Of a stretch of 56,288 nt of DNA, positions 12,997-35,703 are shown piece after piece. Positions within the stretch are counted from its first letter, which is position 1. Every line of letters begins with the position of its first letter. Under the pieces are notes generated by a model. The model did not search any database. It saw only the letters and a program-made list of their open reading frames with translations, and was not told the DNA's origin. The stretch spans positions 1-56,288 of the forward strand of contig CANJZE010000024.1 in NCBI GenBank assembly GCA_947479455.1, in the 5' to 3' direction. The DNA is from Bacteroidota bacterium. GTDB taxonomy: Bacteria > Bacteroidota > Bacteroidia > Chitinophagales > LD1. A program made the translations under genes and the position numbers.

Positions 12997-13539
12997 ATGC
13001 AGCGCGAAAAAATTTACGAACTCCTCGAACGCAAATACAAGGAATGCAACTCGGCTGCTTTCCTTGAAGCCGACCCTATTTCTATTCCTCATCGCTTTTC
13101 AAAAAAACAGGATATAGAAATTGCGGCTTTCTTCTCTGCTACCATGGCTTGGGGAAATCGTAAATCAATCATCACTTCAGCCAATAAGTTGATGAACCTG
13201 ATGGACAATGCACCGCATGATTTTGTGTTGAACCATAAGGATAAGGATTTGAAAAAATTACTTGATTTTAAACACCGCACATTCAACACAACCGACACAC
13301 TTTACTTTGTTGAATTTCTAAAACAACATTATTCAAAGAACGATTCGCTTGAAGCCGCGTTCGTAAATCCGTCAATTGGTAAATCTGTAAATACCGAAAA
13401 TGCAATCGCCACTTTTCACGAAAACTTTTTTTCACTCGAAGATTCTCCGCATCGCACACGCAAGCATGTAGCCACTCCCGTTCGCGGAAGCACTTGTAAG
13501 CGCATGAATATGTTTAAAAGGATAATTAAGGTAGTATAA
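12997..13539 (+). pseudogene. N-terminal half of the host TIGR02757-family (DUF2400) gene, split by the mobile element
   Basis: Codons 1-173 (12997-13515) are host sequence. From 13516 the frame runs into the element's left arm and stops after seven foreign codons (KRIIKVV). Family signs are IPHRFSKKQDIEIAAFFSATMAWGNRKSI (residues 28-56), FKHRTFN and the break at KRMNMF. The missing part, LRWMVRKDESGVDF onward, lies 21.9 kb away at 35431-35703. Joined, the two halves give an uninterrupted reading frame of normal length (about 262 aa), so the only damage is the insertion. TIGR02757 proteins are uncharacterised. The lost C-terminal half holds LDVHVDRTARKLGL, which resembles the catalytic-Asp segment of HhH-GPD DNA glycosylases; that link is my inference. 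Confidence 0.9.
13507..13535 (+). other. attL: left junction of the integrated element
   Basis: The core AATATGTTT (13507-13515) is repeated exactly at the right junction (35431-35439). It is followed by the arm GGATAATTAAGGTAGT (13520-13535), which is the inverted complement of the right arm (35410-35425) with one mismatch. The host gene reads in frame up to the core. The symmetry centre falls between 13510 and 13511 (dinucleotide AT). Confidence 0.88.
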
Positions 13540-13593
13540 TGTAGCTGCGACATTCTATTGTATATTCGTTTTGGCAAGCATCTATAAAGAAGA

Positions 13594-14364
13594 ATGAAAT
13601 TACAACAAAACGAGCTAAAGGAATTTCTGGATTTTAAGGTAAGCCAATACAACACAAAAGCATTTATTCAAGACGACCCTATCCGAATCCCCCACCATTT
13701 CAAACTAAAAGAAGATATTGAGATTTCTGGTTTCTTGGTTGCCACTATAGCTTGGGGAAACAGAAAAAGCATTATTAAGAGCGGGGAAAGAATGATTGAA
13801 TTAATGGGGGAATCTCCATACGACTTCGCTATGTCCGCAACCCCTAAACAAATTGCAAGTCTTAACGGCTTTGTTCATCGAACTTTTAACGGGGACGACT
13901 TTGCAACCTTTTTAAAAGCAATTAGGAATTTATATAAAAGTCATGGTGGCTTTGAAAATGTATTTGCAAAACATGCCACTCCAGAAAGCCTTCAGCCTGC
14001 CATACATGAGTTCAAAAAGGTGTTTTTTTCAATTAAGCATAGTGAAAGGACAGAAAAACATGTTTCTGACCCTTTCAAAAACTCTGCGGCAAAGAAAATT
14101 AATATGTGGCTTAGATGGATGGTTCGTAAGGATAAAAGTGGAGTGGACTTTGGTTTATGGAAATCTATTTCTCCATCACAACTATCTTGCCCATTAGATG
14201 TTCATTCTGGCAACGTTGCCAGGAAACTCGGAATATTGAAAAGGGCACAAAATGATGCAACTGCTTTGGCTGAATTAAATGTTAGTTTACGAAAGCTTGA
14301 CAGTAAAGACCCCGTGAAGTATGATTTTGCTTTATTCGGACTTGGTGTATTTGAAAAATTCTGA
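13594..14364 (+). CDS. full-length TIGR02757-family (DUF2400) protein, element-borne replacement of the target gene
   Basis: 256 aa, complete. It starts 58 bp inside the left end of the element. It aligns throughout with the joined host halves: IPHHFKLKEDIEISGFLVATIAWGNRKSI, FVHRTFN, RTEKHVSDP, INMWLRWMVRKDKSGVDFGLW, LDVHSGNVARKLGIL and DPVKYDFALFGLGVFEKF. It is clearly diverged from the host copy, so it came from another lineage rather than from this gene. At the stretch matching the insertion point the codons differ: AATATGTGG instead of the core AATATGTTT, and the flanking GCGCA and TGCGC of the host site are absent, so it should not be a target. Its job is probably to restore the activity destroyed by integration. 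Biochemical function is unknown; an HhH-GPD glycosylase relation is possible. Confidence 0.9.
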   Translation: MKLQQNELKEFLDFKVSQYNTKAFIQDDPIRIPHHFKLKEDIEISGFLVATIAWGNRKSIIKSGERMIELMGESPYDFAMSATPKQIASLNGFVHRTFNGDDFATFLKAIRNLYKSHGGFENVFAKHATPESLQPAIHEFKKVFFSIKHSERTEKHVSDPFKNSAAKKINMWLRWMVRKDKSGVDFGLWKSISPSQLSCPLDVHSGNVARKLGILKRAQNDATALAELNVSLRKLDSKDPVKYDFALFGLGVFEKF

Positions 14365-14543
14365 TTCAAAACCTTCTCACTTACCAACCACCAAAAGATT
14401 TATTTTTTTTCGGCTTCTCCGTTCGTTAGATTCGCCTAAGTCGCCTTTCTGCTATGTGGAAGGGGGGCAAAAAACAAAAACAACATGGGAAAAAGATTTT
14501 TCTCGGACTATTTATTGGTGATTAATCATCAAGTAACGGCATT

Positions 14544-14613
14544 GGGAGGTTGTTGATAGCTCTCGCCTCCCTTTGCCAATTTTTTAAAGGGAGCTGCGAA
14601 AAAAAGAGCTATT
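14544..14613 (+). promoter_or_regulatory. structured leader of the replication gene (competing hairpins)
   Basis: Three inverted repeats overlap just ahead of the ATG at 14614: GGGAGG (14544-14549) with CCTCCC (14566-14571); CTCCCTTT (14567-14574) with AAAGGGAG (14586-14593); and ATAGCTCT (14556-14563) with AGAGCTAT (14605-14612). The first two exclude each other. The third pairs with the bases directly in front of the start codon and encloses the second. Such a layout suits translation or transcription control of a replication protein. No T run follows the second hairpin, so it is not a plain terminator. Confidence 0.5.
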
Positions 14614-16932
14614 ATGAAAGTAAACTACAACAGACAGAGCAATGCTATTGGCGGCAATCTCACCAGCCAGATTCAATTTCAAATTCATGCAAAACCAAGC
14701 GGTTTAAGCTGGCTTCCAGAAGAAGATAAGCCCAGCCAACAATTATTCGTTTCCGAATACCTTGTATGTGAAAATGGAGGGCTTTTAAAGCAGAAAATAA
14801 CCGAACAGAACAAAAAAGGTGGCGGCAAAAGAAAGCCCGTTAAAACGAAGGTAAAGAAGCAGTTTGCCCTTCCCAAATTGGTTAAGGAATGGGTGGATGC
14901 CAACTTTGGCGAAGAAAAATCCCGCGAAACCGCCTACCTGTATGCTTACTCTGCCCAGTTGCAAATTCAAAACCGACATAAATGGCATTCCGACTTTATC
15001 TGTCTTCCTGCATCAACTCTGAAAAAACATATAACGGATAAAAACCTGTCAAAAATTAAATCGGTTTTTGAAAATGGGAAAATCGTTTTTAAAGAAGGAA
15101 AGAAAAAGACCATTAATAATCAATTAATGAATGTCTATGATTTTAATAGAAGTATGTTTTTGGATTGCGAATTGGTCGTGGTGTCCGTAAATAAGTTTGT
15201 TGAAAAAGAAAGGGATGAAAAAATGAGTGATAATGATATGTTATCTAATACAATCCCCAACCCCCTCTCTTCTAAGGAAGAGGGGGATGGTATTAATTTG
15301 GTTTATATCGTGCGCAATTTACCTCAGAGCGCGCAATTTACCAGTTCAACCACCCAAAACAGCCTTATTGAGCCTAAATGGGGAGAAAAAACCCCCGAAA
15401 ACAGTGAAATTGCGCAGTCAGCAAATACAAAAAGGGAAATTGCGCAGTCAGCAAAACCAATACAAAGGGAAATTGCGCACGCAGCAAATACAAAAAGAGA
15501 AATTGCGCACCCAGTATTAAAGCTACCAAGCCCCTTCCCCGCAATTAATAAACGCAGATTTCAAGCCGAGGAGATTAATGAGTATACAAAAACGAACCTT
15601 CGAAAATTAAAAATTGACTTGAATAAATTGCGCAACCTGATTCCCGACCAAGTTGAAAAGTCGGTTGGAAAAATTGAAGTTATTACTACTAATCATCCTG
15701 ATAAAGTAGCGGGATATAAATACCTGGGCGGAACAGATAAGATTTACTACGATAAAATACATTCTATAATCAGCAAGCTCAAACATGGGCAAAGCCTGAT
15801 GAAGTATAAAGAAGATTGGATTGTGGGGAGTTATCAGCAATATGTGGAGCTAAAACGAAAGCAGATAAAAGAAAGCCTTTTGCTAAATATTCAGAGCTTA
15901 TCCAATCCTGAATGTTTTAGTTCTTTCCTATCTGATACCAATGGTCGCTTATTCCACAACCTATCGAATGTCTGGGGTGGATTCCGCGAACTGATAATGA
16001 TGGATAATAATCTGGTGGAGATTGATATAGCTAACTCCCAAATGGCATTTCTTGCTAAAGAACTTATGCGAGACCATAACTTTGTTTTTTGCAATCCAGA
16101 CGTAGATAATTTTGTTAGTCATGCAGGGGATGGTGTTCTATATGACCGCATTGCAAAAAATATGGACACAACAAAAGATTTCGCCAAACAGATAACCTTC
16201 AACATCATTTTTAATCCCTCAACAAAAGCGAACCAGTTAGCCAAGGGTTTTGAAAAGCATTATCCGAACGTATACCAGTATTGTACCGAGTTCAAAAAAA
16301 TATATGGAGGTAATGCACTTGCTATCTATCTCCAAAAGCTGGAATCGGATGTGATGATAAAATTGATTTATAATCTGCTTATGGAAAACAAACTCTTTTC
16401 CTTAACCATGCACGATTCAATTATTTGCCGAGCAGAAGATTTGGAAATGGTGCAGGATATAATGAAGAGAGCATTCTACGATATTACTTTCCATGCCAAA
16501 CTCCGTATAAAAAATCCCCAACAGAAAGAAGTGCTTAACAAAACGCTTCCTCCAGTTAACACAAGCAACAATCCAGAAAAAAATTGCATCGAAGCATTGA
16601 ATGTGCAAATTTCCGGTCCATTGATTAACGGAAGTAATCCCGAAGAAAATTTTGGTCGTATATCCACAGCAACAGGCACTGATTACTTCGGCAGTTATGC
16701 AAAAAAGAATAAAGAACCTAAACCGCTAACCCAAGAGCAAATGGAGTGGGCAGAGAGTTTAAATTGGGAAGAAATTTTAGCTGATGAAACAGAGCCAGCA
16801 GAAAAGCCATCCGTTAAAGTTCCACAGCTTACGGAAGAAGATGTGAAAGATTTAATGTTGGAGTGGGAGATGGAAGCAGTTGGGCAATCCAATGATGAAC
16901 TACCAGATTTTTCTGCTGATATGTTTGAGTAG
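14614..16932 (+). CDS. predicted replication protein with family-A-polymerase-like core
   Basis: 772 aa. Residues 80-200 look like a helical, winged-helix-type region (ETAYLYAYSAQLQIQ..., PASTLKKHI). Residues 205-315 are a low-complexity linker containing REIAQSANTK-type repeats. Residues 410-640 carry the polymerase-like core: 'GRLFHNLSNVWGGFREL', motif A-like LVEIDIANSQM (D471), an O-helix-like KDFAKQITFNIIFN (K521/K525), and motif C-like LTMHDSII (H600, D601). The order and the Asp/His-Asp pattern are those of Pol I/T7-type polymerases, though divergent. No 3'-5' exonuclease motifs were seen. Beside an element-encoded sliding clamp, a role in element replication is likely. The linker-coding DNA holds iteron-like repeats. 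Function is by motif only. Confidence 0.65.
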   Translation: MKVNYNRQSNAIGGNLTSQIQFQIHAKPSGLSWLPEEDKPSQQLFVSEYLVCENGGLLKQKITEQNKKGGGKRKPVKTKVKKQFALPKLVKEWVDANFGEEKSRETAYLYAYSAQLQIQNRHKWHSDFICLPASTLKKHITDKNLSKIKSVFENGKIVFKEGKKKTINNQLMNVYDFNRSMFLDCELVVVSVNKFVEKERDEKMSDNDMLSNTIPNPLSSKEEGDGINLVYIVRNLPQSAQFTSSTTQNSLIEPKWGEKTPENSEIAQSANTKREIAQSAKPIQREIAHAANTKREIAHPVLKLPSPFPAINKRRFQAEEINEYTKTNLRKLKIDLNKLRNLIPDQVEKSVGKIEVITTNHPDKVAGYKYLGGTDKIYYDKIHSIISKLKHGQSLMKYKEDWIVGSYQQYVELKRKQIKESLLLNIQSLSNPECFSSFLSDTNGRLFHNLSNVWGGFRELIMMDNNLVEIDIANSQMAFLAKELMRDHNFVFCNPDVDNFVSHAGDGVLYDRIAKNMDTTKDFAKQITFNIIFNPSTKANQLAKGFEKHYPNVYQYCTEFKKIYGGNALAIYLQKLESDVMIKLIYNLLMENKLFSLTMHDSIICRAEDLEMVQDIMKRAFYDITFHAKLRIKNPQQKEVLNKTLPPVNTSNNPEKNCIEALNVQISGPLINGSNPEENFGRISTATGTDYFGSYAKKNKEPKPLTQEQMEWAESLNWEEILADETEPAEKPSVKVPQLTEEDVKDLMLEWEMEAVGQSNDELPDFSADMFE
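15248..15292 (+). repeat. palindromic micro-insert inside the replication gene
   Basis: The segment holds AACCCCCTCTCTTCTAAGG followed by AAGAGGGGGAT: CCCCCTCT and AGAGGGGG pair around a short loop. It encodes NPLSSKEEGDG within the disordered linker. A CCCCAACCCC lead-in is shared with the intergenic repeat at 6975. It looks like a small dispersed repeat that has landed in a permissive part of the gene. Confidence 0.55.
15311..15634. repeat. seven iteron-like AAATTGCGCA copies in the replication gene (candidate origin)
   Basis: Forward copies of AAATTGCGCA are at 15407-15416, 15437-15446, 15470-15479, 15500-15509 and 15625-15634. Inverted copies are at 15311-15320 (exact) and 15331-15340 (one mismatch). 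Four forward copies share a longer unit, GAAATTGCGCA, followed by CAGCAAA in three, at 30-33 bp spacing. Seven copies of a 10-mer in 325 bp is far beyond chance. Iterons inside a replication initiator gene are a known origin layout (phage lambda O gene). Origin function is inferred. Confidence 0.6.
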
Positions 16933-16945
16933 GGGGAATAAAAAA

Positions 16946-16968: not shown

Positions 16969-17253
16969 CAATGTTCTGAAGCAATATACAATTGCAATAT
17001 GCGCTTTATGCGCTCAAATGTTTGTTGTTGCATTTTCATCACATCTTGTATATGATGAACTTAGTGAGAGTGCGAGTCGCCAACATCAGTTGAACTAACA
17101 AGGTCTCGCACCTAACCTTAAGGCATTGCAACATGCCCCACGAAAAGTTTACATAAGTTTACTTTTCTTTCAATCGTAAGAACTTCATTATAGAACATAT
17201 AATATAATAACGAAACACATTAAATAAAGTTTCAAATTCTCAAAAATATTTTT
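16969..17253. other. gene-free stretch between replication gene and LamG operon
   Basis: No open frame of convincing content. It holds an inverted pair, GTGCGAG (17070-17076) and CTCGCAC (17105-17111), about 28 bp apart, and a direct pair of AGTTTAC near 17147-17161. These could belong to a small RNA or a regulatory site, but nothing identifies one. The rightmost part is very AT-rich. Confidence 0.3.
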
Positions 17254-17262
17254 TAAAAAAAA

Positions 17263-17285
17263 AGCCAGCTCTTTCGAAACTGGCT
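17263..17285 (-). terminator. terminator of the LamG/lipoprotein operon (GCCAG/CTGGC family)
   Basis: AGCCAG and CTGGCT pair around a roughly 11-nt loop. On the minus strand a run of nine T follows directly. It lies 27 bp beyond the stop of the 522-aa LamG gene. Confidence 0.88.
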
Positions 17286-17311: not shown

Positions 17312-18880
17312 TTACTGCAAAATAATTTGCTTCTGCGATTTAACCGTTTGGTTCTGGTCGGTGATATACATGATGTATGTTCCAGCACCACCCCAAGTGC
17401 TCAGGTCAATATAAAACTGTTGCTGATTTACTGGTTGGTTAAACACCACCTGACCAAGGGTATTGGTTATCTTTATGCTATAACCGCTCATGCTGGCATA
17501 ATTGCCGCAGTTAATCAATAAATGGTCTTTTGCGGGATTAGGATAAACCGTTAACAGGTTGGAGTTGTTGGGAGGGTTTATGCCAGTGAGGTTCACATCA
17601 ATCTTCAATGTATCCGTTACGGATAGATAAGTGGTTACTGTATCGTTTACGGTGGTTGTCACAGTATCATAGCTTGTGCAAACAACACCAGTAGTGTCAT
17701 AAACCAGCGTGGTAGAGCTGGCTGAACCCGAACAACCGTTTCCGTTTGTATAGTTATAGCTTACACTCTTTAAACCTAAACCTGCATTGGCAGGGTTAAA
17801 ACTATTGCCACTTACACCTGCACCCGTGTATGTGCCACCAGACGGGTTCCCGTTCATGTTGAAAGCAGCTGCGCCCAAGTTGGTGATGGTCGGTAACGAT
17901 AAGCTAACTGATGGATTTGGATTAACAGTTACCACCTGGCTGGCAGTTGCCGTGCATCCATTACCGTCAGTTACAGTTACCGTGTAGGTATTCCCTTGTG
18001 TTACGGTTATGCTTTGGGTTGTTGCACCATTGCTCCAGTTATAACTACTTCCAGAACTTGCCTGTAATACCACACTACCGCCCTGGCAGAAAGTGGTGTT
18101 GCCGTTGGGTAATATTGTCGCAGTTGTATTTGCACAATAATTATACAGGTTTGTTATCTCTTGTTGCGTTAGGACTCGGTTCCAAAAACCGATGTCATCT
18201 AACTTACCATTTAAAAACTCTGCATATACTGAATTTATTAATCTTGCACCAAATGATGTATTGTTTGCAGCATTTGCTGGGATTTGTGTGGGTGTGTTAG
18301 ATGAGCAGTTAGTGCATGAAAAATCAAGAGTAGTCAATAATCCATTGATATAAACTTTTGACCTATTAGTCTGAGTAACTTGTGTGCCATCGTATATTAT
18401 AATGACATTGAACCAATTATTGGCAGAAATGCTTGATAAATTTCCTATTTCTAAGCCAGCAAGATAATTTAAATATGGCCTGTCCCTTATTGATGCATAA
18501 AATCCATTTGGTGTGTTTTGTGGAACAGATGGGCCCCATAAAGCAAAGATAGTTCGAGGGGTGTTACTTGTAGTTGAAGGATTAACCCAATAGCTTAGCG
18601 TAAATTGTGTAACTCCTTGTAATCCACCAGCATTAAGTGGTAGTTGAATATAATCATTAACCCCATCAAAACTATATGCACAGTTTGTATTTCCATTTCT
18701 ATCTGTGGTTAGCGCTGCTCCGTTAACCGTTCCATTATTTCCCAAAGGACTTAAATCATTGGCATTGCCAGTAAAAGGATACCAGCCTTTCAAACCGTTA
18801 GTGGGGACATAATTTGGTATCTGAGAAAAAGTAATTGCACTGTAAACTACAAGTGCTGTAAGGGATAATAGTTTTTTCAT
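17312..18880 (-). CDS. secreted LamG-domain protein with T9SS sorting domain (element copy 1)
   Basis: 522 aa. Signal peptide (MKKLLSLTALVVYSAITFSQ), then a LamG/concanavalin-like domain over about residues 28-245 ('GLKGWYPFTGNANDLSPLGNN', 'AYSFDGVNDYIQLP', 'GKLDDIGFWNRVLTQQEI'), then one Ig/PKD-like repeat (about 255-320, 'FCQGGSVVLQASSGSSYNWSNGAT'). A Ser/Thr-rich linker ends in a type A T9SS C-terminal sorting domain from LTVYPNPAKDHLL (about 445) to the end. It should be exported by T9SS and attached to the cell surface. It is the last gene of a three-gene operon (19514-17312) preceded by an ECF-type promoter. Two relatives lie in the window: 26744-28546 on the element and 53028-54515 on the host chromosome. 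Ligand unknown. Confidence 0.9.
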   Translation of the reverse strand: MKKLLSLTALVVYSAITFSQIPNYVPTNGLKGWYPFTGNANDLSPLGNNGTVNGAALTTDRNGNTNCAYSFDGVNDYIQLPLNAGGLQGVTQFTLSYWVNPSTTSNTPRTIFALWGPSVPQNTPNGFYASIRDRPYLNYLAGLEIGNLSSISANNWFNVIIIYDGTQVTQTNRSKVYINGLLTTLDFSCTNCSSNTPTQIPANAANNTSFGARLINSVYAEFLNGKLDDIGFWNRVLTQQEITNLYNYCANTTATILPNGNTTFCQGGSVVLQASSGSSYNWSNGATTQSITVTQGNTYTVTVTDGNGCTATASQVVTVNPNPSVSLSLPTITNLGAAAFNMNGNPSGGTYTGAGVSGNSFNPANAGLGLKSVSYNYTNGNGCSGSASSTTLVYDTTGVVCTSYDTVTTTVNDTVTTYLSVTDTLKIDVNLTGINPPNNSNLLTVYPNPAKDHLLINCGNYASMSGYSIKITNTLGQVVFNQPVNQQQFYIDLSTWGGAGTYIMYITDQNQTVKSQKQIILQ

Positions 18881-18890
18881 TTATATTGTT

Positions 18891-19340
18891 TTATTGTTTG
18901 GTTCCTTTAAATAAATACTGGCTCTCGTATGGATGGCTGTTGCCAGTTAAATTGTTGTTTATATATCCAGTAATGTTCTTGCCGTTTATGCTTGCCGAAC
19001 CTGAAGTTGTGTAGCCTCCAGATGAGGTTTGGTCAAGTGTTAAGCTATTGCCTGATACAGTTCCAGTTCCGTTTAAACCACCATTTACCAATTGCAAGTT
19101 TACTTTGCTTGAAGTTGCTCCTGATGTAATAATCAATGTTTCTGCAACCACCTGACTGGTATCGTATACTTCATTGGTGGCAGCCACTCCTGGGGCGTAG
19201 TAATCAATCACATAAAGAGTTCCTGAATAAGAGCCAATAAAGTTTTGATTACTCGCTGTCTCTTTTTTACACCCTGTAGTAACCAGTATTAGAACGATTG
19301 CAGGTATTAGTAGTTTTAAGTGTAGTAAATGTTTTGTCAT
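18891..19340 (-). CDS. small secreted lipoprotein of unknown function
   Basis: 149 aa. A lipoprotein signal (LKLLIPAIVLILVTTGC, Cys near 23) is followed by KKETAS. The mature part is a compact beta-rich domain of about 120 residues with alternating Gly/Ser/Thr strands (FIGSYSGTLYVIDYY, NLQLVNGGLNGTGTVSG, SASINGKNITGYINNN), similar in feel to lipocalin-like beta-barrel lipoproteins of this phylum. It lies 10 bp upstream of the LamG gene and 9 bp downstream of the small protein gene, so the three are co-transcribed, and it may act with the LamG protein at the surface. No family is recognised. Confidence 0.8.
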   Translation of the reverse strand: MTKHLLHLKLLIPAIVLILVTTGCKKETASNQNFIGSYSGTLYVIDYYAPGVAATNEVYDTSQVVAETLIITSGATSSKVNLQLVNGGLNGTGTVSGNSLTLDQTSSGGYTTSGSASINGKNITGYINNNLTGNSHPYESQYLFKGTKQ

Positions 19341-19349
19341 CGTCTTGCT

Positions 19350-19514
19350 TTATGCTTTTTCAATGGATAAAATAATTACAGTAGCATCTTTGGGCACATT
19401 GTTTTGTTGTTTAAGTTTGGCTACAGCCTCACTTTCGGTGCCGTTGCCAATTAATTGCAGGGTGGTAGAAGTGGTGGTATTGTTCACCTTGTATTTTACT
19501 CTGTAGCTTGCCAT
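19350..19514 (-). CDS. small cytoplasmic protein, first gene of the ECF-controlled operon
   Basis: 54 aa starting MASYRVKYKVNNTTTS. The open frame extends 19 codons upstream, but that extension overlaps the predicted promoter (19533-19560), so the ATG at 19514 is preferred. The sequence predicts beta-beta-alpha-beta (SYRVKYKV, TTLQLIG, TESEAVAKLKQQNNV, ATVIILSIEKA), no signal peptide. It resembles small proteins in which a short ORF precedes a secreted-protein operon, but I do not recognise the family. It sits 9 bp ahead of the lipoprotein gene. Confidence 0.65.
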   Translation of the reverse strand: MASYRVKYKVNNTTTSTTLQLIGNGTESEAVAKLKQQNNVPKDATVIILSIEKA

Positions 19515-19532
19515 AAAGTGTTGTTTTCTTTT

Positions 19533-19560
19533 TAATAGACTAATCCTGTAAAAGGTTACC
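19533..19560 (-). promoter_or_regulatory. ECF-type promoter P1 (small protein-lipoprotein-LamG operon)
   Basis: On the minus strand GGTAACC (19554-19560) is followed after exactly 15 bp by CTATTA (19533-19538), 18 bp ahead of the ATG at 19514. The same -35 element and spacing occur at P2 (26631-26658) and P3 (28567-28594). A GGTAAC/GGAAC-type -35 is typical of ECF sigma factors. Confidence 0.75.
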
Positions 19561-19596
19561 AGTCCCCGCAAAAAATTGTTTCAATAGTCCATTTAA

Positions 19597-19632
19597 TATT
19601 TTCGGTTTAGGACTTAAAAAAACATAGGTTTG
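19597..19632 (+). promoter_or_regulatory. candidate primary promoter(s) of the sigma/anti-sigma pair
   Basis: TAGGTTTG (19625-19632) matches TAnnTTTG exactly, 15 bp before the TTG start. A second candidate is TATTTTCG (19597-19604), with TTG at 19576-19578 18 bp upstream. No GGTAACC precedes the sigma gene on this strand, so autoregulation is not indicated. Confidence 0.4.
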
Positions 19633-19647
19633 TAAAAATTTCAGAGT

Positions 19648-20241
19648 TTGACTTTTGATAAAACCAACATCATCCATGAACTTAAAAACGGCAACCAACA
19701 GGTTTTGCTTTACCTATACAAAGAGTTTAGGGATGAGTTCATCCAGTTTGCACAAAAAAATTACGGATTAAACCGCGAGGAGTTAAAAGATGTCTTTCAG
19801 GAGACGGTCATAGCGTTCTATGAAAACGTTTCCTCAGGTCGGCTGCAATTTCTAACCAGTGATATAAAGACCTACCTTTTTGCCATCGGCAAGCGTCAGG
19901 CAAGCACTTACAAAAAAAATCTTTTCAAAATCGGTAACCTATCTGCTTCAGAAGATATTAAATCTATGTTAAACGACATAGCCGAAGAAATGGAGCAGCC
20001 GAACGAAATAGAGGAATCAATAAAGAAAGTGCTCGCGGAATTGCCTGACCACGAAAGACAAATCCTGGAGCTATTCTATTATGAAAAGAAAAGCATGGAT
20101 GAGATTGCTGCTATTATGGGCTATGCCAATGCAAACAGCATGAAAAAAAAGAAATCGCTGATACTTAAAAAAGTTGGCGAGCAAGTGATAAAATTAAGTA
20201 AGGGATTATTGGGGGTATTGTTATGGATGCACATGAGCTAA
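19648..20241 (+). CDS. ECF-type RNA polymerase sigma factor
   Basis: 197 aa from a TTG start at 19648. An in-frame stop at 19633 fixes the 5' limit, and there is no ATG nearby. Region 2 covers about residues 10-75 (LLYLYKEFRDEFIQFAQKNY, EELKDVFQETVIAFYENV, IKTYLFAIGKRQA). Region 4 covers about 135-190 (LPDHERQILELFYYEKKSMDEIAAIMGYANANSMKKKK), with a clear helix-turn-helix. Regions 1.2 and 3 are missing, as in ECF sigma factors. It overlaps the anti-sigma-like gene by 19 bp, the usual pairing. I infer that it reads the GGTAACC-N15-(C/T)TAT(T/A)A promoters ahead of the LamG, lipoprotein and collagen-like genes on the same element. Confidence 0.9.
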   Translation: MTFDKTNIIHELKNGNQQVLLYLYKEFRDEFIQFAQKNYGLNREELKDVFQETVIAFYENVSSGRLQFLTSDIKTYLFAIGKRQASTYKKNLFKIGNLSASEDIKSMLNDIAEEMEQPNEIEESIKKVLAELPDHERQILELFYYEKKSMDEIAAIMGYANANSMKKKKSLILKKVGEQVIKLSKGLLGVLLWMHMS

Positions 20242-20993
20242 AATATTTTGAGGAGATAGAACGCTATCTGGACAGTGAAATGACCGAACGGGAGCGTGTT
20301 CTGTTTGAGCAAAGGCTAATTGAAGAGCCGCTGCTTAAACAGGAGTTTGATGTTTTGTCGGCAGTGGTAAGGCAAGTAAGTGAAAGTAAGAGGCATGAAC
20401 TAAAAACATTGCTACAGGAAGCAGATAAAGAATTAGACAACGGTAACGTTTCATCAACTTCAGGTAGGCAAAAGCAAACTGCTATAGATGGTAATCGTTT
20501 TTGGAACTATGCCATTGCCGCATGTATTACATTGATTGTTGGAATCAGTATGTTCTGGCTATTTAATCATGCAGATGCCGACCGAGAAAAACTGGTGGCA
20601 AATTATTGGCAAAAGGATGAAGGTCTACCTGTAATGATGGGAGAAAGTGAAGCCGTAAAGTTTGATAATGCCATGTCTAACTTCAAGGTTGGCAAGTTTG
20701 ACGATGCTCTTAATCTTTTTAAACAAGTTTATGCTTCCGATACGGTTATCTATTACACCGCGCTTTGCATGAGCGAATTAAAACAGGATGCTGCACAACA
20801 ATTTAAAACAGTTGCTGAACAGCCTAATAGTGCATACCAGGATAAGGCAAAATACTACCTCTTGCTCCTATACATTAAAGCCGATAAAAAAGCAGAAGCG
20901 AAAACTTTGTTGAATGATTTGCTGGAGAATAAATCACATCCTTACTATACACTTATCGAAAAGCTAAGCAACGAAGCTTACTTTAAAGATTGA
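20223..20993 (+). CDS. membrane anti-sigma-like protein with external TPR domain
   Basis: 256 aa. Residues 1-60 (ELKYFEEIERYLDSEMTERE, RLIEEPLLKQEFDVL) resemble the short helical cytoplasmic domain of Bacteroidota anti-sigma factors, without a zinc motif. One transmembrane helix follows at about 94-114 (YAIAACITLIVGISMFWLF). The rest (about 145-250) is helical with TPR-like pairs (DNAMSNFKVGKFDDALNLFKQV, DKAKYYLLLLYIKADKKAEAKTLL). By topology the N-terminus is cytoplasmic and the TPRs periplasmic. Its start lies within the end of the sigma gene, and its stop overlaps the convergent CHAT gene by 16 bp. Likely role: hold the sigma factor until a periplasmic signal releases it. Confidence 0.78.
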   Translation: MDAHELKYFEEIERYLDSEMTERERVLFEQRLIEEPLLKQEFDVLSAVVRQVSESKRHELKTLLQEADKELDNGNVSSTSGRQKQTAIDGNRFWNYAIAACITLIVGISMFWLFNHADADREKLVANYWQKDEGLPVMMGESEAVKFDNAMSNFKVGKFDDALNLFKQVYASDTVIYYTALCMSELKQDAAQQFKTVAEQPNSAYQDKAKYYLLLLYIKADKKAEAKTLLNDLLENKSHPYYTLIEKLSNEAYFKD

Positions 20994-26713: not shown

Positions 26714-26743
26714 TTGCACTTTGTTGGCGTGTGGTTGAGCAGT

Positions 26744-28546: not shown

Positions 28547-28566
28547 CGTTTAATTGTTTTACATCT

Positions 28567-28594
28567 TTATAAGCAATACTTCACAAAGGTTACC
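28567..28594 (-). promoter_or_regulatory. ECF-type promoter P3 (second LamG gene)
   Basis: On the minus strand GGTAACC (28588-28594) is followed after 15 bp by TTATAA (28567-28572), 20 bp ahead of the start codon at 28546. Spacing is identical to P1 and P2; the -10 differs at two positions. Confidence 0.7.
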
Positions 28595-28606
28595 ACTACT
28601 AAGGAA

Positions 28607-28683
28607 TTTTTTTGGCGGAAAATTTTTTCAAGACCCTGGATGGTTCAAAGATTGCGAAAATTTTGGCGGGAAATTTTTTCGTG
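28607..28683 (+). repeat. two copies of a TTTTGGCGG(G/A)AAATTTTTTC repeat
   Basis: Near-identical 20-bp units at about 28609-28630 and 28661-28680, some 51 bp apart, lie in the gene-poor stretch between the LamG promoter and the three-gene cluster. Further right, a CCCCCTTATTAAGCCCCCT stretch (28751-28769) repeats a TTAA-GCCCCCT motif. This could be a protein-binding or replication site; no function is assigned. Confidence 0.5.
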
Positions 28684-28855
28684 CGGGTTTGCTTGTGCTT
28701 GAAAAGTTCAATAATAGGGTGGTAAAAAGCTGCATACAACCAGCTTAATAGCCCCCTTATTAAGCCCCCTACTTTTCCTGCTCCCAATTCCAAAATTCCT
28801 GAAACATTTTTCAAATCAATTCGTATAACAGTTTTTATCCCCAAATTCTAAGACC

Positions 28856-29242
28856 ATTACGACACAGAAAGACATCGAAACAACTCATACCAAGCGAATA
28901 ATACGAGAAGAACTACTCTTCTGTCGCATTTATCAATTCGATGTTTTTCAAGCTACCCCGATTAAGAAATCAGATTTAGACGAACTGTATTTCGTGGTTC
29001 GGCATGATAACGGAGCCAGTGCAATATTCCGATTTGAGTTTGCGGAATTCTTTGATGGTGGCTTCTTGGTTTTAGACTATCTGTTTCAAAACCCATCAAA
29101 ATTGGACGAAGAGATGCTGCTCTATATAAGATTGCATTTGCTGAATAAGCTATGGGATTATGCAGAACTATACAACCACGAAGTTTATTTCTGGCTATTA
29201 GACAAGGAGGAAAATGATGAAGAACTAAAACAAGCAGCATGA
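28856..29242 (+). CDS. hypothetical protein, cluster gene 1, with unclear or non-standard start
   Basis: The frame is open from 28829 to the stop at 29242 but has no ATG, GTG or TTG before GTG 28994, which would give only 82 aa (VRHDNGASAIFRFEFAEFFDGG...). The upstream 46 codons look protein-like (REELLFCRIYQFDVFQATP, KKSDLDELYFV). An ATT at 28856 would give a natural-looking start, (M)TTQKDIETTHTKRII, and 128 aa; ATT is a rare start codon. The stop overlaps the next start by 4 bp (ATGA), so translation of the cluster is coupled. No family recognised. Confidence 0.55.
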   Translation: MTTQKDIETTHTKRIIREELLFCRIYQFDVFQATPIKKSDLDELYFVVRHDNGASAIFRFEFAEFFDGGFLVLDYLFQNPSKLDEEMLLYIRLHLLNKLWDYAELYNHEVYFWLLDKEENDEELKQAA

Positions 29243-29655
29243 AGAAGATTGCATTCGCACCGATGAACTTGAAACAAACTCCCATCACTTATAATGGTGA
29301 GGCATATTACGAAATGAATGATTGGACAGCTTATGAGATTTATTTTCCTGTTCAACATTTATTTCCAGACGAAGAGCAAATGTTCTTTGCCTTAATCGCA
29401 AATGGCGGAGAGATTATCCTGGGCATTGACTATTTCTATTGCGAAACAAATAAGGAGATACTAATGACTTACGTGTTCGAGCATTCGGAATTTTTGGATG
29501 AAGAGGCATCAGAATATATTGTCAAGGCATTTCTTAATAGCAAGATTATATCGGAGATTAGAAACTACTACAGAAAAAAAGGCTACCAACAGAACGGTAT
29601 CAAATACTGGAGACGAAAACCCATCGTTATAGATGTGGACGACCAGTGTATCTAA
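29239..29655 (+). CDS. hypothetical protein, cluster gene 2
   Basis: 138 aa, no signal peptide. It is rich in aromatic and acidic residues: PITYNGEAYYEMNDWTAYEIYF, EEQMFFALIANGGEIILGIDYFYC, then a helix ending in NYYRKKGYQQNGIKYWRRK. It overlaps cluster gene 1 by 4 bp and gene 3 by 23 bp, so the three are surely co-expressed, and probably act together. I do not recognise the family. It lies between the surface module and dnaN. Confidence 0.65.
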   Translation: MKKIAFAPMNLKQTPITYNGEAYYEMNDWTAYEIYFPVQHLFPDEEQMFFALIANGGEIILGIDYFYCETNKEILMTYVFEHSEFLDEEASEYIVKAFLNSKIISEIRNYYRKKGYQQNGIKYWRRKPIVIDVDDQCI

Positions 29656-30052
29656 GTTTATCACCATCGGAAGAAAGAAAACACCATACGACAATTGGGT
29701 TGGCATTGATTTTAAGCAACCTTTTCATCCGCTAATACGGAGCAGAGATTATTATGCAACGATATTACGCTTCGAGGTTTACATCTATGTTCCTGCCTGC
29801 AAGGAGTTCCATGAGAACATCAATTATTTCTGGATAGAAAGCCCCGACCAGTTAGAGCAAGCCATCTTTGCAATCAACTGGGGTATCGAACACTGGAAAA
29901 GCAAAGAGGTAATCTGTTTTCATCGTCTGATTGTATTACGGGGCGATGTAGAAATGTTCGGGTATGCAAAGATGCTACTCCTTGAAAAATTATATGACCA
30001 AAAAGAGAAAGAGTTCATTCAACGAGGATACGACTTGACCTTAAAAAAATAA
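29633..30052 (+). CDS. hypothetical protein, cluster gene 3
   Basis: 139 aa from ATG 29633, overlapping gene 2 by 23 bp. Content: 'TTSVSKFITIGRKKTPYDNW', 'DYYATILRFEVYIYVP', 'CKEFHENINYFWIESPDQLEQAIFAIN', and a helical C-terminus (KMLLLEKLYDQKEKEFIQRGY). It is cytoplasmic by prediction. Its short beta strands and closing amphipathic helix recall genes 1 and 2, but no convincing homology can be claimed by eye. It is followed by the first of the three CTTTGTTTGTATAT repeats and dnaN. Confidence 0.65.
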   Translation: MWTTSVSKFITIGRKKTPYDNWVGIDFKQPFHPLIRSRDYYATILRFEVYIYVPACKEFHENINYFWIESPDQLEQAIFAINWGIEHWKSKEVICFHRLIVLRGDVEMFGYAKMLLLEKLYDQKEKEFIQRGYDLTLKK

Positions 30053-30062
30053 GTCAAAAATA

Positions 30063-30124
30063 TTTCCCCTTTTTCAGCACTTTGTTTGTATATCAATCTT
30101 TGTTCCAGACTTCCCTGGTTGTCC
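30063..30124 (+). repeat. direct repeat copy 1 (CTTTGTTTGTATAT), upstream of dnaN
   Basis: TTTCCCCTTTTTCA is followed by GCACTTTGTTTGTATAT (to 30093) and then by TTCCAGACTTCCCTGG. Copies 2 and 3 lie at 32183 and 32322 beyond the resolvase gene, all in the same direction. Confidence 0.7.
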
Positions 30125-30266: not shown

Positions 30267-31385
30267 ATGAATAAACTAACCGTGGATATTTCCACGCTGG
30301 CGAATGCCATGCGTATCAATAACAAAGGTGTAAGTAAGAAGTCTGTTATACCGATTATTGAAAACTTAAAGTTGGATGTTACACCAACTCACCTTACCAT
30401 CACATCAACGGATTTAGAAAACTTCATTCTTACAACTATTCCATGCCATGCAGATGAAACATTTTCATTCTTGCTTCCAGCGAGTGAATTAAAACTTATT
30501 GAAAAACTGGATAGCGGTTCGCTGACAATTACTATCGAAGAAGAAAGTGGCAATGCGGTGCTAACAACAAATGATGAAACAGTAAACGTTGCAATAGATA
30601 ATGCAGATGATTATCCAGTTACACCCGCCACCAATCAAACTTTGCCGATTGTAATGTTTGGAAAAGATTTTATTGAGGAATTAAAAGGTTGTCTTGACTT
30701 CGTAAGCAAAGATGATTTGCGCCCCGCAATGACTGGCGTGAACATGCTTATTGAAAATGGCAATGTAGAAATTTGTGCAACTGATGCCCACCTTATGAGA
30801 GTAGCAAAACTATCGGAAGAGAATATAACTGATGCAGCTTGCCTTTCATTTATTATGAATCAGAAGCAATGCAAACTATTGACTGGTTTTAAGAAGGTTG
30901 AGAAGGTGAGTGTAGAAATGCAGAAGATAGATTCTGCGGTATACACTGTTTTTACATTTGCTGAAAACGGAGTAGATGTGAAAATCATAGGTAGAAATAT
31001 AGATGCGAGATTCCCCGATTATAAGCCTGTTATTCCAAGTTCACATTTAACCGAGGTCACTGTAAATAAAAATGAACTCGGAAAAAGAATTGATAAGGCA
31101 ATGCTTTATTCCAACCCGAACACGATGCAAGGTGTATTCTCAATCAACGGCAATGTTAAGTTGACTTCAAAAGACATTGACTTTAAAAAAGAATATACCT
31201 GTGAAATGCCACACGTCTTTAAAGTGGGTGAAGATTTGGAGATAGGATTCAACATGTGCTTTCTGAAAAAGATACTTGGTTGGGTTGGGGGAGAGAATGT
31301 AAACATGAAAATGAGTTACCCCAGTAAACCTGCCATCATTGAAGAAGGTAATACCCTGATGCTGATAATGCCTGTTCTGATTTAG
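30267..31385 (+). CDS. dnaN: DNA polymerase III sliding clamp (beta subunit), element-encoded
   Basis: 372 aa, full length for DnaN. It has the three-domain plan: domain 1 'KKSVIPIIENLKLDVTPTHLTITSTDLENFI', domain 2 'ELKGCLDFVSKDDLRPAMTGVNMLIENGNVEICATDAHLMRVAKL', domain 3 'RFPDYKPVIPSSHLTEVTVNKNEL', ending in TLMLIMPVLI, the usual clamp C-terminus. It would form the dimeric ring that tethers a polymerase to DNA. A chromosome already has dnaN elsewhere, so a second copy on a mobile element, together with a polymerase-like gene, suggests an element-specific replisome or interference with the host one. The resolvase gene follows 18 bp later. Confidence 0.92.
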   Translation: MNKLTVDISTLANAMRINNKGVSKKSVIPIIENLKLDVTPTHLTITSTDLENFILTTIPCHADETFSFLLPASELKLIEKLDSGSLTITIEEESGNAVLTTNDETVNVAIDNADDYPVTPATNQTLPIVMFGKDFIEELKGCLDFVSKDDLRPAMTGVNMLIENGNVEICATDAHLMRVAKLSEENITDAACLSFIMNQKQCKLLTGFKKVEKVSVEMQKIDSAVYTVFTFAENGVDVKIIGRNIDARFPDYKPVIPSSHLTEVTVNKNELGKRIDKAMLYSNPNTMQGVFSINGNVKLTSKDIDFKKEYTCEMPHVFKVGEDLEIGFNMCFLKKILGWVGGENVNMKMSYPSKPAIIEEGNTLMLIMPVLI

Positions 31386-31403: not shown

Positions 31404-32099
31404 ATGAGCACAACAATTAAAAAGTCTGTATGCTACATACGCACAAGTACGGCATTACAGACCCCTGATATTCAATTGAGGGATATTTACACGATTGCTC
31501 CTTCCAACATTATAGAATATGTTGAACAGTTAAGTGCATGGAAAGAAAACGTAAAACGCCCTGTATTTGAGCAACTACTTACTGAAATAAAATCTGGTAA
31601 AATTGAAGCTGTTTACGTTTGGGATTGGGATAGAATATACAGGAACCGCAACCGATTGAAAGAGTTTTTGCTGCTGTGTCAAATTTACGGTGTGCAATTA
31701 CATAGCTATAGGCAAAGTTGGTTTGAGCAATTTCATCAAATACCCCGACCATTCAATGAAATTGTGATGGACATGGTGGTTAATCTAATTGGCTGGATTG
31801 GCGAAGAAGAATCAGAAAAAAAATCTTCTCGTGTTAAGATGGCAGTTAGAAAAACGACCAAGGGAACATTCAGCCACAATGGAAAGAAGTGGGGAAGGAA
31901 AGGTTTTCCTCAACAAACAATAAACAGAGTTTTAGAATTGCATCGCCATGGAGCATCTATTAGGAAAATTGCAGGTGAAGTGAAAACTTATGATGAAAAT
32001 AATAACGCCAAGGCTATAAGCAAAAGTGTGGTTCAAAAAATAATAGTTGAAAATTCTGAATCGGGTGTCCACAAATCATTACCCCCATTAAGTCTTTAA
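31404..32099 (+). CDS. small serine recombinase (resolvase/invertase type)
   Basis: 231 aa. The N-terminal catalytic domain begins VCYIRTSTALQ, with nucleophile S15 and R13 in place. The fold continues through LLTEIKSGKIEAVYVWDWDRIYRNRNRLKEF (contains the conserved D-R-R pattern). The C-terminus has an HTH-like segment ('PQQTINRVLELHRHGASIRKIAGEV'). Such enzymes resolve dimers/cointegrates or invert DNA. It shares a likely transcript with dnaN. Three direct repeats sit around the pair (one before, two after) and are candidate recombination sites. Resolution of replicated multimers would fit an element that replicates. Confidence 0.9.
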   Translation: MSTTIKKSVCYIRTSTALQTPDIQLRDIYTIAPSNIIEYVEQLSAWKENVKRPVFEQLLTEIKSGKIEAVYVWDWDRIYRNRNRLKEFLLLCQIYGVQLHSYRQSWFEQFHQIPRPFNEIVMDMVVNLIGWIGEEESEKKSSRVKMAVRKTTKGTFSHNGKKWGRKGFPQQTINRVLELHRHGASIRKIAGEVKTYDENNNAKAISKSVVQKIIVENSESGVHKSLPPLSL

Positions 32100-32182
32100 A
32101 AAGATAGTTTTTTAGCCTGTCCATAAATCAGTCAATTTATGGTCAACCTATAGAAACTGAGGAGGAAAAATTTTCCATTTAT

Positions 32183-32215
32183 TTTTCCCCCTTTTCATAA
32201 GCTTTGTTTGTATAT
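32183..32215 (+). repeat. direct repeat copy 2 (CTTTGTTTGTATAT)
   Basis: TTTTTCCCCCTTTTCATAAG is followed by CTTTGTTTGTATAT. Beyond it come GCAGCTTTCCAGGACTTC and CAGACTCCGC, echoed after copy 3. It lies 84 bp past the resolvase stop. Confidence 0.7.
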
Positions 32216-32321
32216 AATTTCAGGAAGCTCATTTCCCGCAGCTTTCCAGGACTTCAGACTCCGCTGACGGGATAGTAAGCTGACCGTGGTTTCATTGTAG
32301 AAAATAATTTTTTCTAAAAAA

Positions 32322-32352
32322 ATCCCCCTTCCAAAACACTTTGTTTGTATAT
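32322..32352 (+). repeat. direct repeat copy 3 (CTTTGTTTGTATAT)
   Basis: ATCCCCCTTCCAAAACA is followed by CTTTGTTTGTATAT, then GCGGTTCCCTGG and CAGACTCC, about 138 bp after copy 2. The CAGACTCC part contains the stop codon of the minus-strand gene at 32382. Confidence 0.7.
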
Positions 32353-33724: not shown

Positions 33725-33740
33725 ACTACCTTAATTATCC
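33725..33740 (+). other. internal copy of the attP arm, upstream of the integrase
   Basis: ACTACCTTAATTATCC is the exact inverted complement of the left arm (13520-13535) and differs at one base from the right arm (35410-35425). It is followed by an AT-rich GATTAAAATATTTT resembling the core region, but no second arm. It ends 29 bp before the recombinase ATG. Either an operator through which the recombinase controls itself, or the remnant of an older junction. Confidence 0.65.
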
Positions 33741-33769
33741 GATTAAAATATTTTAGCAAATCAAAGTAT

Positions 33770-35410
33770 ATGATAGGAATTTATTGCAGAATAAGTAAAC
33801 GAAAGGAAGAAGGCAGAGATGTATCTATTGCCGTTCAGAAAGATGCTGGAATAAAGTTTGCAACTAAACAAAATATTCCTCACAAGCTATTCATAGACGA
33901 GGGTATATCGGGTGCAAAGGGTGAAATAGCAGACAGACCAATGTTTGCTGAGTTGTTTAAAGCAATCGAAGAAAAAAAGATTTCGATGGTTTATTGCTAT
34001 GACCAATCCCGAATTGAGCGTAACAGTAATATATGGAGTCTGTTTGTGGGTGTAATGCTGAAAAATGATTGCAAGTATTATCCAGAGGGTAAGTTCTTTG
34101 ACCTTGATGACCCGACAAACCGATTTTTTAGTGGTATATTATCCCTATCCAATGAGCTTTATTCTTCGCTGACCAGTAAGAAAGTTAAGGCTGCCATTTA
34201 TAAGAATGTTATGGAAGGGAAGGCGCATGGACTTACTGCATACGGTTATCAAAAAAATGAAAAGGGTTATTTTGAAGCAAATACCGATGAGGCTCAGATT
34301 GTAAGAAAGATTTACAATCTATCCATTAAGGGCATTGGAGTTTATTCTATAGCCAAGATTCTAAACAAAGAAAACATACCAACAAAGTTCAATCGCTTTG
34401 ACGGAAAAATTAAGCGTAAGGACGCTTATACAAAAGAGGTCTATGAGTATGAAAAGAAAAAAGTAAGATGGAGGGGAAATGTAATCCATGACATGATTAC
34501 CAATACAATTTACAAGGGAATAAGAAAATGGAAAGAAAATCAAATAATAATACCCAAAATTGTTAGCGATGAAACTTGGGAAAATGCTAATAGAAATCTA
34601 AAACACAATAAAAAGAAGGCAGGCAAAAAAGTTCATTATCATTATTTGCTAAATGGACTTTTGGAGTGTGGTAATTGCGGTTCAGTAGTGAGGGGGAAAC
34701 GAAGGCTAAAAGGTCATGACAATGCCTATAAATGCGTCAACAAAACCTCCTATGTTTCATCAAAATGCAAGGATAGCAGAGGTCTGAGCATTCCAAGGCT
34801 TGAGGCAGTTATAATTCGGTTACTTTTTTTAAATGAAGGTTTTCGAGAGACTTTATTAAAAGTGCCCAAGAATACCATCTCTGAGAGTGAGCATATCAAG
34901 AAAACGATTGCTAAGGGCGAAGCCGAACTCATCAAATGTCAATCAAGAATAAAAAGACTTCAAAATGCAATAGAATTTCAAGAGCTTGAAACTGATGAAG
35001 TATTATTGGCAAGACTTGTAAAAGCAAAAAAAGAAAGAGATAGTTTAGTAGATAATATTTCAAGTGCGAACCTGAAATTATCTGAGCTAAACTCTACCAC
35101 AAACAAAAAAATCATACACAACGCCAGCATTGAAGTTTTAAAAGATGGCAATTTTGAAGCAATTCGGTCTATCATACACTCGATTATAGAAAAGGTTATC
35201 ATTAACCACACAAAGAAGAACAAGGGAGGTAGATTTGTTATATCTATAAAATTTAAAAGAACTGATGCTGTTACTCATCTTACAACCGATTGGCAAGCTA
35301 AAAAATGGAGTTATGGTTTCTTCATGGGTGACTTTGGAGTAAAACAAAATAAATTTGACCAGGGTAGGGTTTTATTGATAGATGAAGATGATTTTATTGA
35401 TTTCGATTGA
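33770..35410 (+). CDS. large serine recombinase (integrase of the element)
   Basis: 546 aa. Catalytic domain: IYCRISKRKEEG with nucleophile S9, 'FIDEGISGAKGEIADRPMFAELF' and VYCYDQSRIERN. Recombinase domain over about 150-260 ('GLTAYGYQKNEKGYFEANTDEAQIVRKIYNL'). Zinc ribbon with C300, C303, C322 and C333, followed by a coiled-coil (about 370-445) and a C-terminal part. This is the order of phage-type large serine integrases, which join attP to attB without high-energy cofactors or long homology. The stop codon ends at the first base of the right arm, so the integrase gene abuts its own att site. It should catalyse the integration into the TIGR02757 gene. No separate excision factor was recognised. 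Confidence 0.95.
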   Translation: MIGIYCRISKRKEEGRDVSIAVQKDAGIKFATKQNIPHKLFIDEGISGAKGEIADRPMFAELFKAIEEKKISMVYCYDQSRIERNSNIWSLFVGVMLKNDCKYYPEGKFFDLDDPTNRFFSGILSLSNELYSSLTSKKVKAAIYKNVMEGKAHGLTAYGYQKNEKGYFEANTDEAQIVRKIYNLSIKGIGVYSIAKILNKENIPTKFNRFDGKIKRKDAYTKEVYEYEKKKVRWRGNVIHDMITNTIYKGIRKWKENQIIIPKIVSDETWENANRNLKHNKKKAGKKVHYHYLLNGLLECGNCGSVVRGKRRLKGHDNAYKCVNKTSYVSSKCKDSRGLSIPRLEAVIIRLLFLNEGFRETLLKVPKNTISESEHIKKTIAKGEAELIKCQSRIKRLQNAIEFQELETDEVLLARLVKAKKERDSLVDNISSANLKLSELNSTTNKKIIHNASIEVLKDGNFEAIRSIIHSIIEKVIINHTKKNKGGRFVISIKFKRTDAVTHLTTDWQAKKWSYGFFMGDFGVKQNKFDQGRVLLIDEDDFIDFD

Positions 35411-35439
35411 CTACTTTAATTATCCGTATAAATATGTTT
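35410..35439 (+). other. attR: right junction of the integrated element
   Basis: The arm ACTACTTTAATTATCC (35410-35425) is followed after 5 bp by the core AATATGTTT (35431-35439), after which host coding sequence resumes in frame (CTG CGC TGG, Leu-Arg-Trp). Joined to the left arm it gives a roughly 50-bp dyad with an 18-bp centre, typical of attP for large serine recombinases. Confidence 0.88.
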
Positions 35440-35703
35440 CTGCGCTGGATGGTGCGTAAGGATGAAAGCGGAGTTGATTTCGGAATTTGGAAAAAGATAA
35501 AACCCGCACAACTTTTAATTCCGCTCGATGTACATGTGGACAGAACCGCCCGCAAACTCGGCTTGATAAAACGCAAACAGACGGATTGGGAAACAGTAAT
35601 AGAACTAACTGAAAACTTAAAGCAGTTTGATGCAAACGACCCGGTGAAATACGACTTCGCACTTTTCGGAATTAGCGTGTTGGACAAAATGCAGATACAT
35701 TAG
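35431..35703 (+). pseudogene. C-terminal half of the split host TIGR02757-family gene
   Basis: About 90 codons, NMFLRWMVRKDESGVDFGIW to the stop at 35703, continuing the frame broken at 13515. It contains IPLDVHVDRTARKLGL and DPVKYDFALFGISVLDK, the conserved C-terminal blocks of the family. An open frame reaches back through the right att arm to a TTG at 35407, so a fragment could be translated, but it lacks the N-terminal two thirds and should be inactive. Next gene 6 bp downstream, so the element may also affect expression of 35710-37307. Confidence 0.9.

Follow-up and report, generated by a model that had tools for sequence, protein, structure and literature searches.

A large serine recombinase element that breaks a TIGR02757 gene and carries a complete replacement copy

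Can a mobile element enter the middle of a conserved protein gene and itself bring the gene that it breaks? The question is raised by a contig of 56,288 bp from a Bacteroidota bacterium (CANJZE010000024.1; G000:C24 in our numbering), one entire contig of the 3.76-Mb assembly GCA_947479455.1, which we call the window. Here, a gene of the TIGR02757/DUF2400 family lies in two halves on either side of an element of 21,924 bp (13507 to 35430, core to core), which has a complete gene of the same family near one end and a large serine recombinase (LSR) at the other. The answer is affirmative: a mobile element breaks the gene and brings a full replacement in the window, and the arrangement recurs in two unrelated genomes.

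The split gene and the intact copy in the window

The N-terminal half of the host gene (12997 to 13515, forward strand) and the C-terminal half (35431 to 35703, forward strand) each include the 9-bp core AATATGTTT, which is found at 13507 to 13515 at the left junction and, identical, at 35431 to 35439 at the right junction. As the original prediction had claimed, the halves rejoin in frame at this repeat: 12997-13506 and 35431-35703 together form an uninterrupted open reading frame (ORF) of 260 amino acids, and both parts match the family. On the TIGR02757 profile (cut-off 139.2 bits), the N-terminal half scores 104 bits alone and 144.8 bits with its in-frame neighbours, and the C-terminal half, which covers DUF2400 positions 142 to 224, scores 123 bits. 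The site is uninterrupted in all nine genomes of the same genus for which the gene was fetched.

The gene inside the element, which we call the rescue copy (13594 to 14364, forward strand, 256 amino acids), scores 224.2 bits on TIGR02757 (positions 1-227 of 229) and 284 bits on DUF2400 in Pfam (positions 1-224 of 225). With about 46-47% identity to the rejoined host protein, it bears out the prediction of an insert of about 21.9 kb with a complete and diverged TIGR02757 gene. It starts 83 bp past the inferred crossover (13510/13511) and 54 bp past the stop of the truncated host ORF; the 58 bp from the left end that had been predicted apply only when counted from the end of the left recombinase arm (13535), not from the crossover. 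A family search of the whole assembly returned the two host halves, this one intact copy and nothing more.

Just inside the junctions lie two inverted recombinase arms, GGATAATTAAGGTAGT at 13520 to 13535 on the forward strand and, with one mismatch, its counterpart at 35410 to 35425 on the reverse strand. The LSR (33770 to 35410, forward strand, 546 amino acids) has Resolvase, Recombinase and zinc-ribbon domains (PF00239, PF07508 and PF13408, all above cut-off), and its best PHROG match is the integrase PHROG 95.

We consider it probable that this is an LSR element that breaks TIGR02757 and carries a complete ortholog as a standing rescue component, a reading that builds on what can be seen in the sequences: the anatomy, the recurrence, the layout of the attachment (att) sites, the occurrence of both orientations and the purifying selection on the copies. 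The LSR would use a conserved stretch of TIGR02757 as its attB, and integration within a conserved Met codon, at its AT, would cut the host gene in two. The complete ortholog at the end opposite the LSR, which is related to Flavobacteriaceae-like copies, would take over the function. As a probably poor attB, this copy should itself resist integration, and a symmetric central dinucleotide would allow integration in either orientation. The element presumably still moves.

Recurrence in other genomes and relatives of the recombinase

An even sample of 395 genomes of the class was searched for TIGR02757, and a sample of 396 genomes of the order likewise. The family was matched in 353 of the class genomes and not in the other 42, and more than one match was found in nine class genomes besides that of the window, all of which were examined. 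Two genomes, G372 and G379, hold an N-terminal half, a C-terminal half and one intact copy each, on contigs of 102 kb and 59 kb; the order sample contained no further genome with three matches. In G372, about 88 bp separate the left crossover from the start of the rescue copy, and an LSR of 599 amino acids reaches almost to the right junction. The element of G379 is inverted as a whole: an LSR of 566 amino acids stands beside the N-terminal half and the rescue copy beside the C-terminal half. The three intact elements come from genomes of different families, with an identical insertion codon. All three have the rescue copy at the end opposite the LSR, and a small resolvase-domain protein is common to them.

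A search with the LSR, made independently of TIGR02757 in about 740 distinct genomes (the sample of 339 genomes of family f56 and the order sample lay outside it), leads to the same three elements. An LSR match was present in 72 of the 395 class genomes, with E values below 1e-280 only in the window's genome, G372 and G379; the next value was 6.7e-69. The original prediction had proposed to ask whether LSRs flanked by split TIGR02757 genes come with an intact copy near an element end. This is the case for all three full-length LSRs of the subfamily that were found, two of them independent of the window: in each genome, the host gene is present in both halves and the element holds an intact copy. 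Without the genome of the window, the subfamily occurs in 2 of 394 class genomes, or about 0.5%. No new member was found among 46 genomes of the order of G379, 329 of the order of G372 and 12 of the order of G109 (a genome described below), sets that partly overlap the class sample. Plasmid records (48) and phage records (135) with an LSR match were all below 60% identity, and at most 34% among the 15 matches listed of each kind. A recombinase search of genome contigs gave one distant match only (21% identity), and scans of viral contigs with single proteins turned up no relative. The alignment-based viral search returned an LSR relative in a yifB-inserted prophage (L115), a distant LSR (L116) and eight viral TIGR02757 homologs.

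Nineteen genomes with split, partial or double TIGR02757 matches, drawn from the two samples, were re-inspected, a set that holds some of the partial ones. Several candidates were not counted: halves cut off by a contig end close to the insertion position, with the missing sequence out of view (G490, G556, G265, G448, G1282); one gene in two pieces that overlap or lie close together (G005, G025, G173, G245, G653); a full gene with a 21-bit scrap (G240); and C-terminal parts that lack a full N-terminal half (G530, G012, G501, G1408). Among the loci with only a C-terminal part, there was no arm in L070, L072 and L213 and no LSR in L070, L072 and L073. In G483, contigs C48 and C49 each hold a full TIGR02757 copy, and the two are similar.

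Could the carried gene be ordinary cargo with a DNA-repair-like function, and its presence in an element that entered the host's TIGR02757 a coincidence? Phages do carry the family (15 records), for reasons seemingly unrelated to integration. However, target and carried gene belong to the same family in all three intact elements, the copy always sits opposite the LSR end, and the phage and viral copies are not part of the clade to which the element copies belong. We regard this explanation as improbable. Alternatively, a second gene copy may have been acquired first, leaving the redundant resident as a free landing site. As the element copies are most similar to the genes of another lineage, some genome must once have held both, but the three genomes belong to different families, and in all of them the intact copy lies inside an att-bounded element at one and the same codon, with no other intact copy found. 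This order of events seems to us very unlikely indeed. A backbone part of the element is the best reading of the replacement gene.

The original prediction of one LSR-borne element in TIGR02757 that supplies a whole diverged ortholog near one end is borne out in three of three genomes found with a full-length LSR of the subfamily. The element copies are 62-66% identical to one another. Because synonymous sites are saturated (proportion of synonymous differences, pS, 0.82-0.87) while nonsynonymous differences are few (pN 0.23-0.27), the copies are under purifying selection. The LSRs are just 37-39% identical, yet form one clade (support 100/100), which makes the association an old one.

In the LSR tree, which has several long branches and is firm only at its starred forks, this clade is joined (100/99) by two LSRs inserted in yifB/comM, that of the prophage L115 and that of locus L127 in G980. 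We take the target to be yifB from the protein starts and from tblastn comparisons between the loci. By raw identity, the L115 enzyme matches the window LSR (39% over 413 residues) as closely as the members of the subfamily match one another, yet it falls outside their clade. No second yifB copy was present in the three yifB elements that show both halves of the gene (G305, G1107, G980), so in the elements seen, the rescue gene appears to go with the TIGR02757-targeting branch. Relatives integrated elsewhere, which the original prediction had named as evidence against itself, exist outside the subfamily, in yifB; the three members found all sit in TIGR02757. In or beside yifB/comM, a recurrent target, we also noted second-tier LSRs at L089, L090, L091, L093, L094, L125, L126 and L127. 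The prophage in yifB/comM (IMG/VR 2627854001, L115:8910-13041) encodes a 468-amino-acid protein beside its LSR, whose motifs, compared by eye only, resemble those of a 772-amino-acid protein of the window element (14614 to 16932).

Attachment sites, orientation and origin of the carried gene

Five genomes have an insertion at the same codon: that of the window, G372, G379, and two with decayed insertions, G109 and G513. In G109, both host halves flank 650 bp with a C-terminal remnant of the recombinase and both end arms. In G513, which belongs to the window's genus, the syntenic locus retains the N-terminal half together with an arm and an inverted remnant of the recombinase, but of the C-terminal half only the final bases. 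The window, G372, G379 and the G109 remnant have a common attP layout of inverted arms of about 16 bp (ACTACCTTAATTATCC ... GGATAATTAAGGTAGT and close variants) around an 18-bp spacer with AT at its dead centre. This centre, which in the window's left core lies between 13510 and 13511, corresponds to the AT with which the Met codon of the conserved motif NM[F/Y]LRWM (NMFLRWM in the window) begins. The 16-bp arm motif occurs three times in the window at up to two mismatches, compared with 0.02 expected in shuffles. Arms and spacer together span 50 bp, and the minimal attP of the A118 integrase is likewise 50 bp in the accessible text (PMC3556126).

The third arm of the window (33725 to 33740, reverse strand, 16 of 16 bases) lies 29 bp before the recombinase start and is a possible operator. 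Read by eye, G379 has a close copy in the corresponding place, matching its left arm at 15 of 16 bases, and a weaker one is present there in G372. This placement suggests that the recombinase may control its own promoter. A 17-bp arm pattern gave eight viral matches with no LSR or TIGR02757 in the available stretch, which we treated as chance.

Insertions are direct in the window and G372 and inverted in G379, G109 and G513, so that the window and G513, of one genus, have opposite orientations. A symmetric core dinucleotide permits synapsis in either orientation, according to the accessible text of the A118 work (PMC3556126), and the symmetry of AT may explain why both occur. As seen by eye, TAnnTTTG boxes precede the G372 and G379 copies, and a near match precedes that of the window. 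TAnnTTTG is a Bacteroidota promoter motif, and own boxes before two of the three copies are consistent with orientation-independent expression.

It is possible, if somewhat doubtful, that freedom of orientation by itself explains why a whole gene is carried: a symmetric core permits both orientations, a patch of the 3' end would serve in one only, and a whole, self-expressed copy would therefore be needed, with selection acting for the element through sparing of its host more than for the host. The finding of both orientations speaks for this. So may G706 and G1383, in which a near-identical second C-terminal part, beginning at the same codon, lies 5 and 10.6 kb beyond the full gene, as an element that restores the 3' end would leave it. 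The idea refines the rescue reading rather than opposing it. There is no arm in either duplication locus (L074 in G706, L212 in G1383), no LSR match in G706 and none by eye among the G1383 ORFs. Between the duplicated C-terminal parts in L212 and L074, we noted by eye apparent metal-efflux genes or insertion sequence transposases, and recognised no integrase.

Whether the rescue copies are foreign to their hosts was addressed with trees of 89 and 58 rows. In these trees of host and element copies, of the sort that the original prediction had called for, the split host genes group with their own genera (the window's with G496 and others, that of G372 with G218, that of G379 with G796 and G784), and the element copies fall in the radiation of family f56, presumably the Flavobacteriaceae (more than 200 genera among its 339 genomes), together with part of genus g193. 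The window copy reaches up to 70% identity to f56 copies. A foreign origin of the window and G372 copies is, from these trees, well supported but not proved. The further suggestion that the element may replace the local allele has found no case, and the split host copies group with their own genera.

The rescue copies also differ at the crossover. The residue after NM, which overlaps the core, is F or Y in all 76 cellular copies not chosen by similarity to the element copies (a non-independent set, chosen for family score or kinship), and W, N and M in the three element copies. The right half of the target, TGT[TA][TC][CT]TnCGnTGG, is present in 81 of 113 cellular copies and in none of the three element copies; the consensus was drawn post hoc, and the three split hosts match it by construction. 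Because its codons around the crossover differ from the targets that were used, an element copy is probably a poor attB. We rejected the idea that the altered residue is unique to element copies: M or W stands there in 7 of 37 native copies selected for their resemblance to the element copies, and F or Y is likewise missing from 7 of 10 viral or phage copies. Because such native copies exist, the change at the core may go back to the donor lineage and not to selection on the element; inherited or selected, it would probably make the copy a poorer target either way. One such native copy (G1182) has no LSR match and no arm in its 16-kb locus.

Several observations weigh against the rescue reading. 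The intact examples are only three, the window's own among them. G109 and G513, both 99% complete, persist with no intact TIGR02757 copy; the gene can therefore be lost. Together with the 42 of 395 class genomes that have no match, this makes it doubtful that the host would come to depend strictly on the element for this function, as had been predicted; that the host bears no cost, another part of the prediction, is a conjecture. The host gene of G379 lies in the same radiation as its element copy. For the three element copies, a single clade is neither supported nor rejected (approximately unbiased (AU) test, p 0.188). Grouping the window copy with its host gene and G496 is disfavoured, yet the test does not reject it at the 5% level (AU p 0.065). 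The native copies with M or W at the core residue belong here too, as does the fact that, of the three yifB elements, only that of G980 has an LSR in the nearest group.

We tentatively extend the rescue reading to a break-and-replace lineage. A branch of LSRs whose nearest relatives target yifB may have switched to a conserved repair-like gene and taken up a complete ortholog, altered at the target, into its backbone; the symmetric crossover would require a whole, self-expressed gene, each transfer would swap the functional allele of the host, and hosts may escape by changes at the same codon. The seven native, Flavobacteriaceae-like copies with M or W there would be possible cases of such escape.

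The protein family, the cargo and known systems

What kind of gene is entered in this way? By sequence, no relative was found among solved structures (two matches, E 0.3 and 0.95). A predicted model (pLDDT, the predicted local distance difference test, 84.5) matched HhH-GPD DNA glycosylases in Foldseek with probability 1.00 (best E 0.013, none at or below 0.001). VIA-align gave Z 14.1 to EndoIII over 189 residues at 3.3 Å, with glycosylases occupying most of 50 rows, and Z 11.8 to the queuine-salvage family DUF2419; mostly helical models can reach such Z scores through a common arrangement. From the model, TIGR02757 likely has the HhH-GPD DNA-glycosylase fold of EndoIII, MutY and OGG1, and the split gene, a conserved one, is probably related to DNA repair. 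The insertion falls just after the conserved Lys of KR.NMFLRW and before the conserved PLDVH, both of which we take, by comparison with OGG1, to hold candidate catalytic residues. TIGR02757 homologs were also noted in phages and viral contigs (L117-L124, L129, L130), where seven of ten lack F or Y at the core residue. In the two phage neighbourhoods that we read, replication and recombination genes surround it, and the stretch shown contains no annotated integrase. In the literature searched, the name TIGR02757 was not found, and DUF2400 occurred in a single paper.

In the remainder of the window element, beside the rescue copy, lies the gene of the 772-amino-acid protein (forward strand), which has no Pfam family and a weak match to PHROG 4756, of unknown function. 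Cargo genes follow (17312 to 29655) for LamG/type IX secretion system (T9SS) proteins, an extracytoplasmic function (ECF) sigma factor, a CHAT-domain protein, a collagen-repeat protein and unknowns. A homolog of the DNA polymerase III beta clamp, DnaN (30267 to 31385, forward strand), adjoins a small serine resolvase/invertase-like protein (31404 to 32099, forward strand). The cargo of G372 and G379 includes type I restriction-modification, and in G379 a GmrSD-type protein too. Among the Pfam matches of the 18 window-element ORFs scanned, several of which had no assignment, there was no relaxase or type IV secretion system family, no phage structural or packaging gene and no homing endonuclease family. 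The best PHROG matches of nine element proteins were an integrase, an invertase, the beta clamp and one unknown; PADLOC gave no match for six proteins, and no tRNA was found in the whole window.

Some repeats were noted in passing. The collagen-repeat protein (23547-26594, 1015 amino acids), between the CHAT-domain and LamG/T9SS proteins, has dozens of imperfect repeats. An AGCCAG...CTGGCT inverted repeat recurs in similar stretches downstream of cargo genes (17241-17285, 23432-23476, 26669-26713) and probably marks terminators. A repeated segment ending in CTTTGTTTGTATAT (30043-30093, 32165-32215, 32302-32352) is possibly a common promoter motif.

Descriptions of site-specific elements usually have them spare their target by inserting at gene ends, or settle in genes that the host can do without. 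In contrast, three deeply diverged elements enter the middle of a widely conserved gene and carry a full replacement. In the accessible parts of the literature searched, which covered few subscription papers and preprints, we found no description of a complete replacement ortholog for a broken gene. The elements offer a bacterial test bed for the joint evolution of target choice, orientation and rescue, they add candidate LSRs with a mapped 50-bp attP and a symmetric core, and the model points to a DNA-glycosylase-like fold for DUF2400.

Among known systems, Listeria phage A118 interrupts its target comK and is not known to bring a replacement gene. As far as the accessible texts describe them, the LSRs of the A118 family are alike in domains, in a pseudo-palindromic attP and in its minimal length of 50 bp (PMC3783163, PMC3556126), but the asymmetric GG core of A118 fixes the orientation (PMC3556126). 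Integrative mobilizable and integrative conjugative elements in rumA, mutT and hsdM likewise have a serine integrase, a very short direct repeat and an internal split; in the portions available, they disrupt a dispensable gene or exchange its 3' part, whereas the window element carries a complete replacement ortholog (PMC5704250, PMC4701971). The dusA-specific genomic islands, described as having a novel integrase family, also restore the protein gene that they enter, but according to the accessible text they supply only a new 5' end, which gives a chimeric gene (PMC4482086). Unlike in tRNA, guaA and dusA islands that restore an end, here both host halves stay broken and a separate complete gene is present. 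The WHO homing elements of yeast FBA1 target one conserved gene and bring a nuclease-resistant gene sequence, but in the accessible account they rely on a homing endonuclease and gene conversion and form a chimera of the 3' end, not a whole ortholog (PMC7282813). The window element is not of this type, its integration enzyme being a serine recombinase. Engineered home-and-rescue gene drives, which are synthetic, nuclease-based and eukaryotic, break their target and carry a recoded rescue copy. The window element resembles them in that it, too, breaks its target and carries an altered rescue copy.

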